This document shows positions 1,039 through 32,519 of a DNA stretch of 33,519 nt, piece by piece (the first letter of the stretch is position 1; each line of letters opens with the position of its first letter). The stretch is from Microcaldota archaeon (GTDB taxonomy: Archaea > Micrarchaeota > Micrarchaeia > Micrarchaeales > CABMGC01), in assembly GCA_021809925.1 (NCBI GenBank), contig JAJZJV010000006.1:1-33519 (forward strand), written 5' to 3'. A program made the translations under genes and the position numbers. The notes beneath the pieces were generated by a model. That model ran no database searches. It was not told where the DNA came from and saw only the letters and a program-made list of their open reading frames with translations.

Positions 1039-1146
1039 TGGGCCCGAGGAGATTTGAACTCCCGTCCTCCCGATTTCTGTCATTTGATTAAACTTTTCAA
1101 AAGTTTATATCAGTCGGGTGCTCCAACCAGGCTAAGCTACAAGCCC
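1039..1146 (-). tRNA. tRNA-Ile(GAT) with an intron of about 33 nt in the anticodon loop
   Basis: Reverse complement folds as a tRNA: acceptor GGGCTTG/CGGGCCC, D-arm GCTT..GAGC, anticodon stem CCCGA/TCGGG, loop CTGATA-[intron]-A, T-arm GGGAG TTCAAAT CTCCT, discriminator A. Confidence 0.85.
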
Positions 1147-8881: not shown

Positions 8882-9604
8882 TTACCTCAGCCTTGCCCCT
8901 CCATCTACTGGTATGACTGCTCCATTAATCCACTCCGATTCATCGTCCAAAAGCCATGTTATAACTCTGGCGACATCTTCTGGAGGGCATTCAATATCTC
9001 CCAATTTCCTGCTTCTTTTCCACTCTCTCCCCGGCTTAAAATCATGTCTCATTGCTTTAGGCGCTACAGCATTGACTCTGATACTTTTATCCAGAAGTTC
9101 GTATGCCAGGAGTTCTGTTGCCTTGGCGAGGCCAGCTTTTGCCGAGGCGTATACTATTTCATCTAAGCCATGTCCATATGTACCTTCTATTGAGGATACC
9201 ATGACTATGGCCGAGCCCTCTTTGAGATGCGGCAATGCTTCTTTAACTGCATATATTGGCGCCTTGAGGTTCACGCTTATCATACTCTCCATCTTCTCCT
9301 CGCTAAGACTCTTTATTGGCGTATCCGTGTAATTTCCAACAAGAATAGCAAGATGATCTATCTTTCCAAGTTTCTTTAGGGATTGATCCACAGCCTTTCT
9401 TGCTCCAGAGATAGTGGAAAGATCAGCAACAATATACTCAATTTTCCCGTATCCGGAGAGTTCTTTCTTCACCTTTTTAAGGTTGGACTCATTTCTCGCA
9501 ACAATTACTATCTCCGCACCGCTCTTAAGTAGAAAGTAGGATGTTGCTGGGCCCAATCCCAATCCAACACCCATAACAAGTACCTTTTTGCCAACAAGAT
9601 TCAT
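8882..9604 (-). CDS. Short-chain dehydrogenase/reductase (SDR)
   Basis: Rossmann 'KKVLVMGVGLGLGPATSYFLLK', 'YASAKAGLAKATELLAYEL', C-terminal 'NGAVIPVDGG'. Confidence 0.87.
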   Translation of the reverse strand: MNLVGKKVLVMGVGLGLGPATSYFLLKSGAEIVIVARNESNLKKVKKELSGYGKIEYIVADLSTISGARKAVDQSLKKLGKIDHLAILVGNYTDTPIKSLSEEKMESMISVNLKAPIYAVKEALPHLKEGSAIVMVSSIEGTYGHGLDEIVYASAKAGLAKATELLAYELLDKSIRVNAVAPKAMRHDFKPGREWKRSRKLGDIECPPEDVARVITWLLDDESEWINGAVIPVDGGARLR

Positions 9605-16999: not shown

Positions 17000-17401
17000 C
17001 TACTTTTCTTCTCTTTTTATTGCCTCAAGCATCTCTTTGGCTACCACTGTACCTGAGCGTTCACAGATCATTCTAACCTTTTCAAGAACAAGTCTTCCTT
17101 CCTTGCGCCCATCTCCTAACAAGTGTAGCCCGCTCGACTTATACCAGACAGCTCCTAGAAGAGGAAAACCTTCTGTATAATTTTTCCTTCCCTCTCTGTA
17201 TTCTAAGAATGCAGCAGAAAGGCGCAATCTTTTTGCGGCTTTAGGAAGGTCTAACTGATCCATCGCTGTTGCAGCATCAAGCATCTTAAACGCAGCTTCT
17301 CCAAACTTACGATTCCTTCTTGCATCGAAGGCCGAGATCTGCAGAGCATTGACCCTTCTTATCTTTATGTCGCGTTCAATGCTACTCATACAATCACTCA
17401 A
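17000..17401 (-). CDS. Hypothetical alpha-helical (TPR-like) protein
   Basis: ORF overlapping the upstream pentapeptide gene by 8 nt in the same orientation; helical Ala-rich composition. Confidence 0.6.
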   Translation of the reverse strand: MSDCMSSIERDIKIRRVNALQISAFDARRNRKFGEAAFKMLDAATAMDQLDLPKAAKRLRLSAAFLEYREGRKNYTEGFPLLGAVWYKSSGLHLLGDGRKEGRLVLEKVRMICERSGTVVAKEMLEAIKREEK

Positions 17402-24528: not shown

Positions 24529-25128
24529 ATGTATACAAAGTGGATAATTATGACCAAAAAAGAAAGATATGCTTATTTTTCTGTAGACGTAGAAGCAGCA
24601 GGTCCAGCGCCACCATACAGTATGCTTTCCATAGGGGCAGTGTATACTGGTACTCCTCCAGCAGAGTTTTATTCGGAACTAAAGCCCATATCTGAAGAGT
24701 TTGATCCCAAGGCTTTGGAAGTCAATGGCTTTGATTTATCAAAACTCAAGGTTACAGGTCAAGAACCTGAAGCAGTGATGCGCTCATTTTCTGAATGGGT
24801 AAAGAAAATTTCTGACGGTAAAAGACCTGTCTTCGTTTCGTACGGAACATTCGACTGGATGTTTGTCCAGTTTTATCTCTCGAAGTATACTGGTGAGATA
24901 CCATTTGGGCCTAATGGGCTAGATCTAAAATCTTTTAGCATGGGTGTACTCCATCTTCAAACGTGGAGAGAGACCACCGAACAAAAAGTAATGGATCTGA
25001 TAGGGTTGAAGAGAGATTCATCTAGTGTAGAACATAATGCTTTGGATGATGCAAGAAAACAAGCAAGACTATTTAATCTGTTGCAAGAAATTAGGTCAAG
25101 ACATGACCGTACAAAATTAAAGGTATAA
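24529..25128 (+). CDS. DEDDh 3'-5' exonuclease family protein
   Basis: 'YFSVDVEAAGP' (DxE), 'GTFDWMFV' (D), 'EHNALDDARKQARL' (HxxxxD). Confidence 0.85.
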   Translation: MYTKWIIMTKKERYAYFSVDVEAAGPAPPYSMLSIGAVYTGTPPAEFYSELKPISEEFDPKALEVNGFDLSKLKVTGQEPEAVMRSFSEWVKKISDGKRPVFVSYGTFDWMFVQFYLSKYTGEIPFGPNGLDLKSFSMGVLHLQTWRETTEQKVMDLIGLKRDSSSVEHNALDDARKQARLFNLLQEIRSRHDRTKLKV

Positions 25129-26256: not shown

Positions 26257-27117
26257 TCACTTCGTGCCCTTTTTTATCATCTCGACAACATTCTCCATCT
26301 CTTTTCTGCTTTTATTTATATCCTCTATGTTGTCTATTGAATACCATGGCGTTGAGAAAACATATCCAAAGAGCTTCCCCGCGCTGGCCAATGCCGGAAA
26401 GAGACTCTCCTCAAGCATTATTCTGCCAGAGGAACCGGAGAGAAGACCAAAGACTGATGGATCGAAAAGATAGATGCCAGCATTGACAAGCCTTGCTTCC
26501 CTTCCCTGATCTGGCTTTCTGGTAAAGTTGCTTATCTTTAAGCCCTCTAGCCTTGTAACACCCATGCCATATCTTGATATTGATGTTGTAAGAGCAACGG
26601 TTGCTAATGCTCTAGTCTCGATATGCTGCAGGTACATTCCAGCCATATCCAGCCTGAATATATGATCCCCATTTAATGCAAAAAAAGGCGATGTCCCTAT
26701 CAGCCCACTGACAAGGCTTAATGCACCTTCGGTACCTCTCTGTGCATCCTCTCTTATATAATTAAGCCTTACTCCCAATGCAGACCCATCTCCGAAGTGA
26801 TCTACTAAGTCATCACTTCCCTTCCCTATTGTGACGAGCACCTCAGATATGCCATTTCTCTTGAGTTCTCCCACCACATACTCCATTATTGGCCTTCCCT
26901 TGATTGAGATCATTGGAGGGTAGACTACTCGATTTTCTATCACTATGCCTCTCCCACCAGCAAATATAACCGCTTTCTTTGGCATTGCATGCGTCATGGC
27001 AGAATCAAGTAGATGCTCTATCGCATGCGATCTATTTCTTATCTTAACTCCATCTATCCCTGCATCGATTCTTTTTAGCAACTCCTCGTCAAGGGTTATT
27101 GTGAGTCTCTTCTTCAT
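26257..27117 (-). CDS. Ribbon-helix-helix (CopG/MetJ-type) domain fused to sugar-phosphate nucleotidyltransferase domain
   Basis: N-terminus 'KKRLTITLDEELLKRIDAGIDGVKIRNRSHAIEHLLDSAM' (RHH), then 'KAVIFAGGRG...', 'GRPIMEYVVGELKRNGISEVLV', 'GTEGALSLV', 'FFALNGDHIFRLD', 'VNAGIYLFDPSVF'. Confidence 0.85.
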   Translation of the reverse strand: MKKRLTITLDEELLKRIDAGIDGVKIRNRSHAIEHLLDSAMTHAMPKKAVIFAGGRGIVIENRVVYPPMISIKGRPIMEYVVGELKRNGISEVLVTIGKGSDDLVDHFGDGSALGVRLNYIREDAQRGTEGALSLVSGLIGTSPFFALNGDHIFRLDMAGMYLQHIETRALATVALTTSISRYGMGVTRLEGLKISNFTRKPDQGREARLVNAGIYLFDPSVFGLLSGSSGRIMLEESLFPALASAGKLFGYVFSTPWYSIDNIEDINKSRKEMENVVEMIKKGTK

Positions 27118-27182
27118 TTTATCAGTTCTGTGTACTTACAGTAAATAGTTACAACGATAAATCTAAATATCATTATGAAAAC

Positions 27183-27222
27183 TATGATATAGTATGATAA
27201 AGTATGATATAATAAGATATTA
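27183..27222. promoter_or_regulatory. Tandem 10-bp-period direct repeats, candidate RHH operator
   Basis: TATGATATAG TATGATAAAG TATGATATAA TAAGATATTA; an inverted ATATCAT copy lies at 27167-27173. Confidence 0.65.
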
Positions 27223-27232
27223 AGGTTTTTCT

Positions 27233-28129
27233 ATGAACGCATCCGGAACAAAAACCCTTGGAAGAAACAAAGCGTTATGCGAAGCATTACAATCACAATT
27301 GCGCAATGAAGATATGGCATTTGATAATAGGCCGACCATTCTGACCCCAGAAAAATGTCCGGGAAGGTATGCTGGAGAAGTGGTAAGTATCCCACCTGGG
27401 TTTTTTCGCATCAGAGCAATGGGCGGGATAAAAACATTCTGCTCTACTGTCCTTCCAAATACCTCCATGATAGCGTTTTCCCAACAATCTATAGATGTTG
27501 TGATTAAGCAACACGACAGTGGAGAGAATGTATCCTTCAACGGAATTAATGGAGTAATAGTGCCTCAGAAAACATCGTGCCAGATAAATAATGTCGGAGA
27601 GCAGCCTCTGTTTACTGTCTATGGTGCCTTGGATGGGTCGTTCGTTCGAAATCCAATTGGATTTAATCTCAATGCTGTGAAAGAGTATATAAATAAGTAT
27701 GGCACATCAAAGATTATGGTACCTAATAGACCGTATGGGGAACGCATCGGCGTCGTCAATGGTGGCCTTTTTGGTGAGGGTGCAGATGGAAAAAAGGAGA
27801 TAGTGTTGGGTCCGCATACCTATGACTTCTCTGCAGGAAACCATCTTTCTCCACAATCAATGCATGTACATTGTCAACTGCACGAAATATTCGTAACATT
27901 CTCTGGCATGAGGCTCTTCTATCCTTATAAGGGGGAGATTTTCTTCTTAGAGGCCATGAAAGGGGAAGCAGTGATAGTCCCTCCTGGCTTAGCTCATCTC
28001 ACAATCATGGACGGAGAGGAACCTACATTCGTATTTAAAGCATCTTTAAACGGAAGCGTAGCAAATGATAAGCGCGTATTGCTCTCTGATGAACATGTTA
28101 AAGGATTATCTGAATTACTAAGGCAATAG
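27233..28129 (+). CDS. Cupin-fold (bicupin-like) protein
   Basis: 'SMHVHCQLHEIFVTFSGMRLFYPYKGEIFFLEAMKGEAVIVPPGLAHLTI' cupin motifs; N-terminal half also cupin-like. Confidence 0.7.
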   Translation: MNASGTKTLGRNKALCEALQSQLRNEDMAFDNRPTILTPEKCPGRYAGEVVSIPPGFFRIRAMGGIKTFCSTVLPNTSMIAFSQQSIDVVIKQHDSGENVSFNGINGVIVPQKTSCQINNVGEQPLFTVYGALDGSFVRNPIGFNLNAVKEYINKYGTSKIMVPNRPYGERIGVVNGGLFGEGADGKKEIVLGPHTYDFSAGNHLSPQSMHVHCQLHEIFVTFSGMRLFYPYKGEIFFLEAMKGEAVIVPPGLAHLTIMDGEEPTFVFKASLNGSVANDKRVLLSDEHVKGLSELLRQ

Positions 28130-28136
28130 TGTTTAG

Positions 28137-28670
28137 ATGAAGAAAATAGATGATGTCGGATCTGGGTACTCAATCTGGATCATGCCTGAGGCAGGAGAAG
28201 GAGAAAGGTATGCAGAGATTATACGCTTGCTCTCCTCTACCTACTCAACCCCATTCTTTGAACCCCACGTTACGCTGCTCGGCGGACTGTCTGGTAGTGA
28301 AGATTCCTTAATTAAAGGGATATCTGATATTGCATCCTCTATACACTCGTTTACGACGCAGTTCGATAAGATTGGTTATCTGGAAGAGTATTTTAGATCG
28401 CTCTTTGTACTCTTAAAGAGAGATGCCGAATTAGAATATATATGGAAGACTGCATCTGCAAAGTTTCATCTCCGTCCCGATAGATATATGCCCCACATGA
28501 GTCTTATTTATGGATTCATTCCAGAAGAAGAAAAGCAAGAAATTATAAAAAAGATTATGGTAAATGACATCGGAAATGGGTTTCTGGCAAAAAAGCTTGC
28601 GCTTTATTCTACGGAAGGACCTGTGGAAAGATGGCAGAAGATTTGTAGTTTTGATCTGTCGCGAGTATAA
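28137..28670 (+). CDS. 2H phosphoesterase (cyclic phosphodiesterase/LigT-like)
   Basis: Two HxT/S motifs: 'PHVTLLGGL' and 'PHMSLIYGF'. Confidence 0.82.
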   Translation: MKKIDDVGSGYSIWIMPEAGEGERYAEIIRLLSSTYSTPFFEPHVTLLGGLSGSEDSLIKGISDIASSIHSFTTQFDKIGYLEEYFRSLFVLLKRDAELEYIWKTASAKFHLRPDRYMPHMSLIYGFIPEEEKQEIIKKIMVNDIGNGFLAKKLALYSTEGPVERWQKICSFDLSRV

Positions 28671-31427: not shown

Positions 31428-32519
31428 ATGCCGATTAAACAACTCGAAGCAACAAATAAGAACCCAAAGCAACTTCCAACAAATGGGGACGAACCACTTT
31501 TCGTTGTTGATAGAAGGCTTCCTGTAAAAGATGTGGTTACGGGGTGGAAGGAGTTAAATCGACAGCGCACTGAACAGCTAATGCATATTGCATTCGATGT
31601 GGCAATGCATGCAAGAAAGGTTGCTGGTGTTGTAGCGGAGGCGGTGAAGGCTTCGATTGTTGTTGCCGTCGTAGCAATCTCCGTTACTGCATACTCGATA
31701 TCAAAAGAGCCACACCTCTCCAAATCAATAGATAACGTGCCTATAGGGATATCTGCTGCTGGGATATCCTCTCATGAAGGCCAGCCTTTACCTGTCATTA
31801 CAGACAGGATATTAGGTTATCTTGACATCAAAGAAATTGGTGTTTCTTACGATGCCTTGGGGTCTAACCTAAATGGCTTCGGCCTGGGTACATATAAGGA
31901 GATTGTGGGATCTGGCAAAGGAAGCTTTCAATTAAATGCGTTTCTCTTCGGAGGGCAGAATTATGGACAGATCTATTGGGCCCAAAACGTTGTAGAGCTT
32001 GATACAAAAACCAACGAGATTTACTTCGCGTTGAACGTCTGGGATGGAATCTCTACTCAGCCAGTCTTAGCATATGATACACCTGCAATGAACTATACAT
32101 TGCCGATAAAAATAGATCTCTCCATGTCTCTTAAGACCTTTGAAGGATCTGAATATCTCTTCTTCAGTTATCAGATAAATAATGAAGTTTCGATTACTTA
32201 TTACAAGTACAAATTGCCAAGCACATTCCTTTTGATCTCTTCAGGATTTACCCCAACAGACCTCGTGTTTTGCGGCCCCTACAGTTCCGAGATAGCATAT
32301 GCTAGCAAAATAGATGCGTCCCTAGCGCTGTATTATGATGATAATGGAAAGCTTCTTCTGTTTTCAAACATAAACACAGAAGACCTTTCACTAATACATA
32401 CTGGCGAAAGTGCAGCCAACGTAAATGCCTATCTTGGCTCGGATTCTTTCATCAATCTTTCAACAGGAAATCCAACAAATATCAATCTGACAAATTTCAG
32501 TCCAGATGTGCCAAAATAG
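31428..32519 (+). CDS. Hypothetical single-TM-anchored extracytoplasmic protein
   Basis: TM segment 'ASIVVAVVAISVTAYSI' followed by a long polar, probably beta-rich domain. Confidence 0.65.
   Translation: MPIKQLEATNKNPKQLPTNGDEPLFVVDRRLPVKDVVTGWKELNRQRTEQLMHIAFDVAMHARKVAGVVAEAVKASIVVAVVAISVTAYSISKEPHLSKSIDNVPIGISAAGISSHEGQPLPVITDRILGYLDIKEIGVSYDALGSNLNGFGLGTYKEIVGSGKGSFQLNAFLFGGQNYGQIYWAQNVVELDTKTNEIYFALNVWDGISTQPVLAYDTPAMNYTLPIKIDLSMSLKTFEGSEYLFFSYQINNEVSITYYKYKLPSTFLLISSGFTPTDLVFCGPYSSEIAYASKIDASLALYYDDNGKLLLFSNINTEDLSLIHTGESAANVNAYLGSDSFINLSTGNPTNINLTNFSPDVPK

Follow-up and report, generated by a model that had tools for sequence, protein, structure and literature searches.

Why would an archaeon with a genome of 0.9 Mb carry a nucleotidyltransferase that has lost its catalytic signature and is joined to a DNA-binding domain? 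The question is raised by an open reading frame at 26257 to 27117 (minus strand, 286 aa) of the window, i.e., the whole 33,519-nucleotide stretch of Micrarchaeota DNA analyzed here. The best explanation, which we consider likely with some reserve, is that it encodes an autoregulatory repressor of the RHH type, which would control its own gene and a divergent cupin-phosphoesterase operon, with the eroded enzyme domain as sensor of a sugar-phosphate or nucleotide sugar.

The first-pass annotation had given the exact extent of this frame, and profile searches matched both domains that it proposed. It had called the N terminus RHH and named a lack of RHH similarity in an HMM search as one outcome that would overturn the idea; similarity was found instead. 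The best RHH profile was that of NikR, TIGR02793 (residues 3 to 45, E = 9.4e-6), and Pfam RHH_1 fell just under its cutoff (17.9 bits against 20.5; E = 0.003). Furthermore, an RHH sequence resembling that of the family matched E. coli NikR in the PDB (1q5v, E = 1.3e-3). By profile, therefore, the protein is placed among the RHH (CopG/MetJ/NikR) proteins, with NikR as the closest solved relative. NikR contacts DNA through the residues of its R-x-T-x-T strand, which the fusion shares as R4-x-T6-x-T8. This domain (residues 1 to 45; 26983 to 27117, minus strand) is about 80% conserved across the 24 homologs compared, and we infer that it binds DNA itself. The remainder is a sugar nucleotidyltransferase domain (residues 47 to 269; 26311 to 26979, minus strand). 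PF00483 (NTP_transferase) covers residues 48 to 269 with E = 1.1e-23 and 84.5 bits, against a curated cutoff of 21.2, and Foldseek with the AlphaFold2 model (pLDDT 84.7) matched MurU, RmlA, and GMPPA/GMPPB at E values of about 1e-16 to 1e-19. The protein belongs to the sugar nucleotidyltransferase fold family PF00483.

The fusion resembles RmlA- and MurU-type enzymes in its fold, its AGG start, its GT and NGD motifs, and NAGIY, and differs from them in the N-terminal RHH domain and in the signature. Where a canonical paralog in the same genome reads AGGEGTRLRPLTEDTPKP, the fusion reads AGGRGIVIENRV--VYPPM. With AGGRGIVIENRVVYPPM occupying the place of the paralog's AGGEGTRLRPLTEDTPKP, both the GTR Arg and the PKP Lys are gone, as the first-pass annotation had claimed. 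The replaced loop (residues 54 to 69, GGRGIVIENRVVYPPM; 26911 to 26958, minus strand) is two residues shorter than the canonical signature, and the GxGTR...PK pattern of catalytically competent sugar nucleotidyltransferases is absent. The EKP Glu has changed as well, the window protein reading TRKP. Its C-terminal W-x-D is WYSID, with the Asp at W+4, where canonical enzymes of the same order also have it (W-x-PIDT). Retained are AGG and the sugar and metal motifs that had been described as kept (GTEGA, NGD, and NAGIY). Conservation computed across homologs is 0.38 for the replaced loop versus 0.62 for the whole nucleotidyltransferase domain; it reaches 1.0 for AGG, 0.80 for the RHH domain, and 0.72 to 0.78 for the pocket motifs. 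A poorly conserved loop beside a conserved pocket and RHH domain is the pattern expected of a protein kept for a role other than canonical catalysis. Thus, the window protein probably no longer synthesizes nucleotide sugars; some residual activity is conceivable, since the metal-binding Asp of NGD is retained.

How far does this erosion extend? Within the order, the fusion was found in 26 of 164 genomes (the window's own and 25 others), two of the copies being fragments, and the full-length members share 41 to 70% identity. The named records that carry them are nearly all Candidatus Micrarchaeota. The GTR loop is absent in every order member read; L095 and L090 seem to have an R or K in the GTR column, which was judged to be a chance letter of the replaced loop. 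The PKP Lys survives in about half of the order members and is missing from the window's branch. In the tree, the order's members form a single group (support 100/100; root not known). When 84,980 species were scanned more widely, each through a single genome, 233 candidate relatives came up, and the best 80 of them were read. Among these 80 were other DPANN archaea (Woesearchaeota, Altiarchaeota, Aenigmatarchaeota, Diapherotrites, and Nanoarchaeota) and Patescibacteria (Gottesmanbacteria, Buchananbacteria, Doudnabacteria, Uhrbacteria, Berkelbacteria, and Kerfeldbacteria). The signature is intact in these other DPANN (Arg in 40/40, Lys in 40/40, WxD in 37/40); in the Patescibacteria, Lys replaces the GTR Arg in 11 of 18, and the PKP Lys is kept in all 18. 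Every member that covers the position retains the Asp of NGD. Since free-standing enzymes carry the signature, its loss within the fused family would be the simplest reading. Moreover, distant relatives of the same architecture keep it intact, so that the two domains were probably joined before the signature decayed, in an ancestor that was probably still an active enzyme carrying a DNA-binding domain. The first-pass annotation had regarded homologs with an intact signature and full activity as evidence against its idea. Intact signatures do occur, in these distant relatives; their activity is a prediction, and proteins of this architecture there would probably combine enzyme activity with regulation of their own operon.

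PMM/PGM carries out the step preceding nucleotide-sugar synthesis, and the gene encoding it follows the fusion in relatives with the full signature. Together with the Asp of NGD and the GT and NAGIY motifs retained in the window protein, this would suit a trigger enzyme, which still catalyzes nucleotidyl transfer with a non-canonical signature and, like PutA, regulates its own promoter. However, we consider this unlikely for the window protein, because the GTR Arg is lost throughout the order members read, the loop that replaces it is poorly conserved, the PKP Lys has been lost too in the window's branch, and the genome holds two other, free-standing nucleotidyltransferases.

Where might a regulator of this kind act? 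The first-pass annotation had pointed to the divergent promoter between the fusion and cupin genes (27118 to 27232, intergenic), and exactly there we found a conserved operator-like array. TATGATA recurs at 27183, 27193, and 27203, followed by a degenerate TAAGATA at 27213, with a period of 10 bp (predicted operator, 27183 to 27219). The three TATGATA boxes (27183 to 27209) are 3 pattern hits in the window against 0.01 expected. We also recorded, with no motif given, the distances at which identical 6-mers recur in upstream regions, with dinucleotide shuffles as control. Recurrence at 10 bp was observed in 34 of 83 upstream regions, compared with 5.1 (maximum 14) in the shuffles, and no other distance was prominent. 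The 6-mers repeated most often were ATCATA and GTATGA, the latter being the reverse complement of TCATAC. Allowing up to one mismatch, TCATACN4TCATAC occurs in 37 of the 83 regions against 0.04 expected, related sequences here not being independent of each other; about half of the regions upstream of the homologs contain nothing close to this pattern. Those that carry it span several DPANN phyla and several Patescibacteria. In the window's own assembly, no further intergenic copy was found at up to one mismatch, except possibly one in a doubtful 73-aa reading frame at C13:5081, and weaker matches in that genome are probably chance. Control of the divergent operon, and with it the DNA-binding side of the regulator reading, is thus strongly supported by sequence. 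An RHH-enzyme architecture with operator-like repeats at its own promoter may be a candidate for PutA-like autoregulation.

The operator of NikR is GTATGA-N16-TCATAC (PMC7055735). The half-site of the fusion repeats, GTATGA/TCATAC, is exactly that of NikR, which matches the NikR-like RHH domain of the fusion. The arrangement differs: NikR uses an inverted pair separated by N16, whereas the fusion has direct repeats at 10 bp. The sensors also differ, being the nickel-binding NikR_C in NikR and the nucleotidyltransferase domain here; NikR_C is not in the window protein, residues 48 to 269 of which are NTP_transferase. Could the array belong to NikR or a similar RHH regulator, leaving the fusion's RHH domain only to dimerize? 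The shared half-site would allow it, as would the NikR_C-like proteins in 35 of 162 genomes of the order. Nevertheless, we find this very improbable. The window's own genome gave no NikR_C match, and G059 to G064 include genomes with NikR_C-like hits that have neither the fusion nor an exact site. Furthermore, the boxes sit at the fusion's own promoter in both archaea and Patescibacteria, and their other targets are sugar genes rather than nickel genes.

Autoregulatory RHH proteins are mostly repressors. The placement of the operator agrees with this in several lineages: it lies between the TATA box and the start codon in G135 to G137, L098, and L111, and Patescibacteria have it 12 to 50 bp ahead of the start codon. 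The predicted operator of the window overlaps a TATA-like element of the cupin gene (TATAATAA, 27208 to 27215, plus strand) lying 25 bp before the cupin ATG, an inferred element that is a weak match (6 of 8 positions). In most Woesearchaeota cases, the operator is 13 bp from the TATA box of the fusion and 12 bp from that of the divergent gene, outside both. This spacing could serve either to block or to recruit the basal machinery, and its near constancy would suit an activator, in which the same DNA-binding regulator recruits basal transcription factors from a position immediately preceding the TATA/BRE of each divergent gene. We consider activation rather unlikely in view of the downstream operators, the overlap in the window, and the usual behavior of RHH proteins. 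Since several relatives place the operator downstream of TATA and ahead of the coding sequence, and Patescibacteria a short way ahead of the start codon, repression appears the better general guess, and we hold it with fair confidence.

Which genes would such a repressor control besides its own? The probable target in the window is the divergent double-cupin gene (27233 to 28129, plus strand), homologs of which lie near the fusion in 11 genomes, the window's included. A CPDase/2'-5' RNA ligase-like phosphoesterase (28137 to 28670, plus strand; PF07823, E = 7e-14) probably shares its operon, with homologs near the fusion in nine genomes, again including the window's. In some genomes, these homologs lie downstream of the fusion in the same direction. 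The cupin model retrieved only general double-cupin matches (oxalate decarboxylase, DUF861). No PGI match was found in the window's genome, and that the cupin replaces the missing PGI is a guess. The operon has no assigned sugar role, which counts against the sugar reading. Elsewhere in the window, a 3'-5' exoribonuclease-like protein (24529 to 25128, plus strand) is Rv2179c-like (E = 3e-9). The protein at 31428 to 32519 (plus strand; PF05317, E = 4e-21) belongs to the thermopsin family of archaeal acid proteases. A tRNA gene at 1039 to 1146 (minus strand), scored by Rfam at 51.4 bits and missed by ARAGORN, has about 34 extra bases after the 5' side of the anticodon stem, probably an intron.

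The fusion's neighbors in other genomes are sugar genes. In many other DPANN, PMM/PGM comes after the fusion and FBPase-aldolase-GAPDH runs divergently from it; PGK and GAPDH come after it in some Patescibacteria. Within the order, other members have it next to canonical nucleotidyltransferases, a ROK kinase, or an NAD-dependent epimerase-family gene, or alternatively ribulose-phosphate epimerase and transketolase genes. Beside the copy in G014, two adjoining genes (L033, 367 to 1646, minus strand), one nucleotidyltransferase-like and the other its partner, resemble an AbiE-type pair by eye.

Exact operators were also searched for elsewhere in the fusion-bearing genomes and in G033, a close relative without a detected fusion. 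Most matches outside the fusion loci lie inside long reading frames and are probably chance. Other exact operators stand before a PGI gene, before galE-galT, between nagB and the fusion, and before a nucleotidyltransferase and PGI-like pair whose divergent neighbor is unclassified, perhaps the cupin homolog. Not every exact site adjoins a sugar gene: one in G097 precedes a class I aminoacyl-tRNA synthetase-like gene (named from its sequence), and sites in G056 (C3) and G151 have no explanation. The theme of the sites and neighbors, as predicted from the genes, is sugar-phosphate and nucleotide-sugar metabolism. In one Gottesmanbacteria sequence (L170), three exact operators fall within 16 kb, at 1653, at 8966 (before galE-galT), and at 17320 (adjoining a PIG-L deacetylase gene), which suggests a small regulon in this bacterium.

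A mechanism can be proposed for a dedicated transcription regulator that would have evolved from an RHH-tethered sugar nucleotidyltransferase. In the divergent promoter, each GTATGA (TCATAC) box in the row would be held by one RHH dimer. As the boxes are one helical turn apart, neighbors would stand on the same face of the helix and bind cooperatively. Occupancy of the boxes would control, and most likely repress, both the cupin-phosphoesterase operon and the gene of the fusion itself. Having lost the signature that grips phosphate and kept the rest of its pocket, the nucleotidyltransferase domain would act as the sensor. As its ligand, a sugar-phosphate or nucleotide sugar is the most likely choice, because a domain without the Arg and Lys should handle triphosphates less well and the nucleoside and sugar pockets remain. 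Binding of this ligand would alter dimer or oligomer geometry, and hence the cooperativity of the RHH dimers and the occupancy of DNA.

For the architecture, the closest analogue is PutA, a regulator in proline catabolism. PutA (trifunctional proline utilisation A) has an N-terminal RHH domain fused to a metabolic enzyme and is an autogenous repressor (PMC5293562). In contrast to the nucleotidyltransferase fold of the fusion, with its lost signature, the enzyme of PutA is an unrelated flavoenzyme that stays active. For the sensor, GMPPA offers a parallel and is itself a Foldseek match; it is a non-catalytic GMPPB paralog, reported to be a nucleotidyltransferase fold turned GDP-mannose-binding regulator (PMC11228364). 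GMPPA differs from the fusion in acting on an enzyme by protein contact rather than on DNA, and in having no RHH domain. A literature search of open-licence papers found no description of the RHH-nucleotidyltransferase architecture, which is probably an undescribed family of sugar-sensing regulators.

Gene regulation in DPANN and Patescibacteria is little known, partly because few have been cultured. Here, one family comes with a predicted DNA code and gene set (gluconeogenesis, hexose isomerization, and nucleotide-sugar synthesis) open to testing in vitro with no need for cultures. We lean, if only slightly, toward the view that this family is a widespread sugar-phosphate controller in DPANN and Patescibacteria, with a single operator code across archaea and bacteria, and that the Micrarchaeota branch is a step from active enzyme-regulator to pure pseudoenzyme sensor. 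If true, a single architecture would document, along a phylogeny, how a likely active enzyme became a pseudoenzyme sensor, and archaeal and bacterial promoters would have one operator in common.
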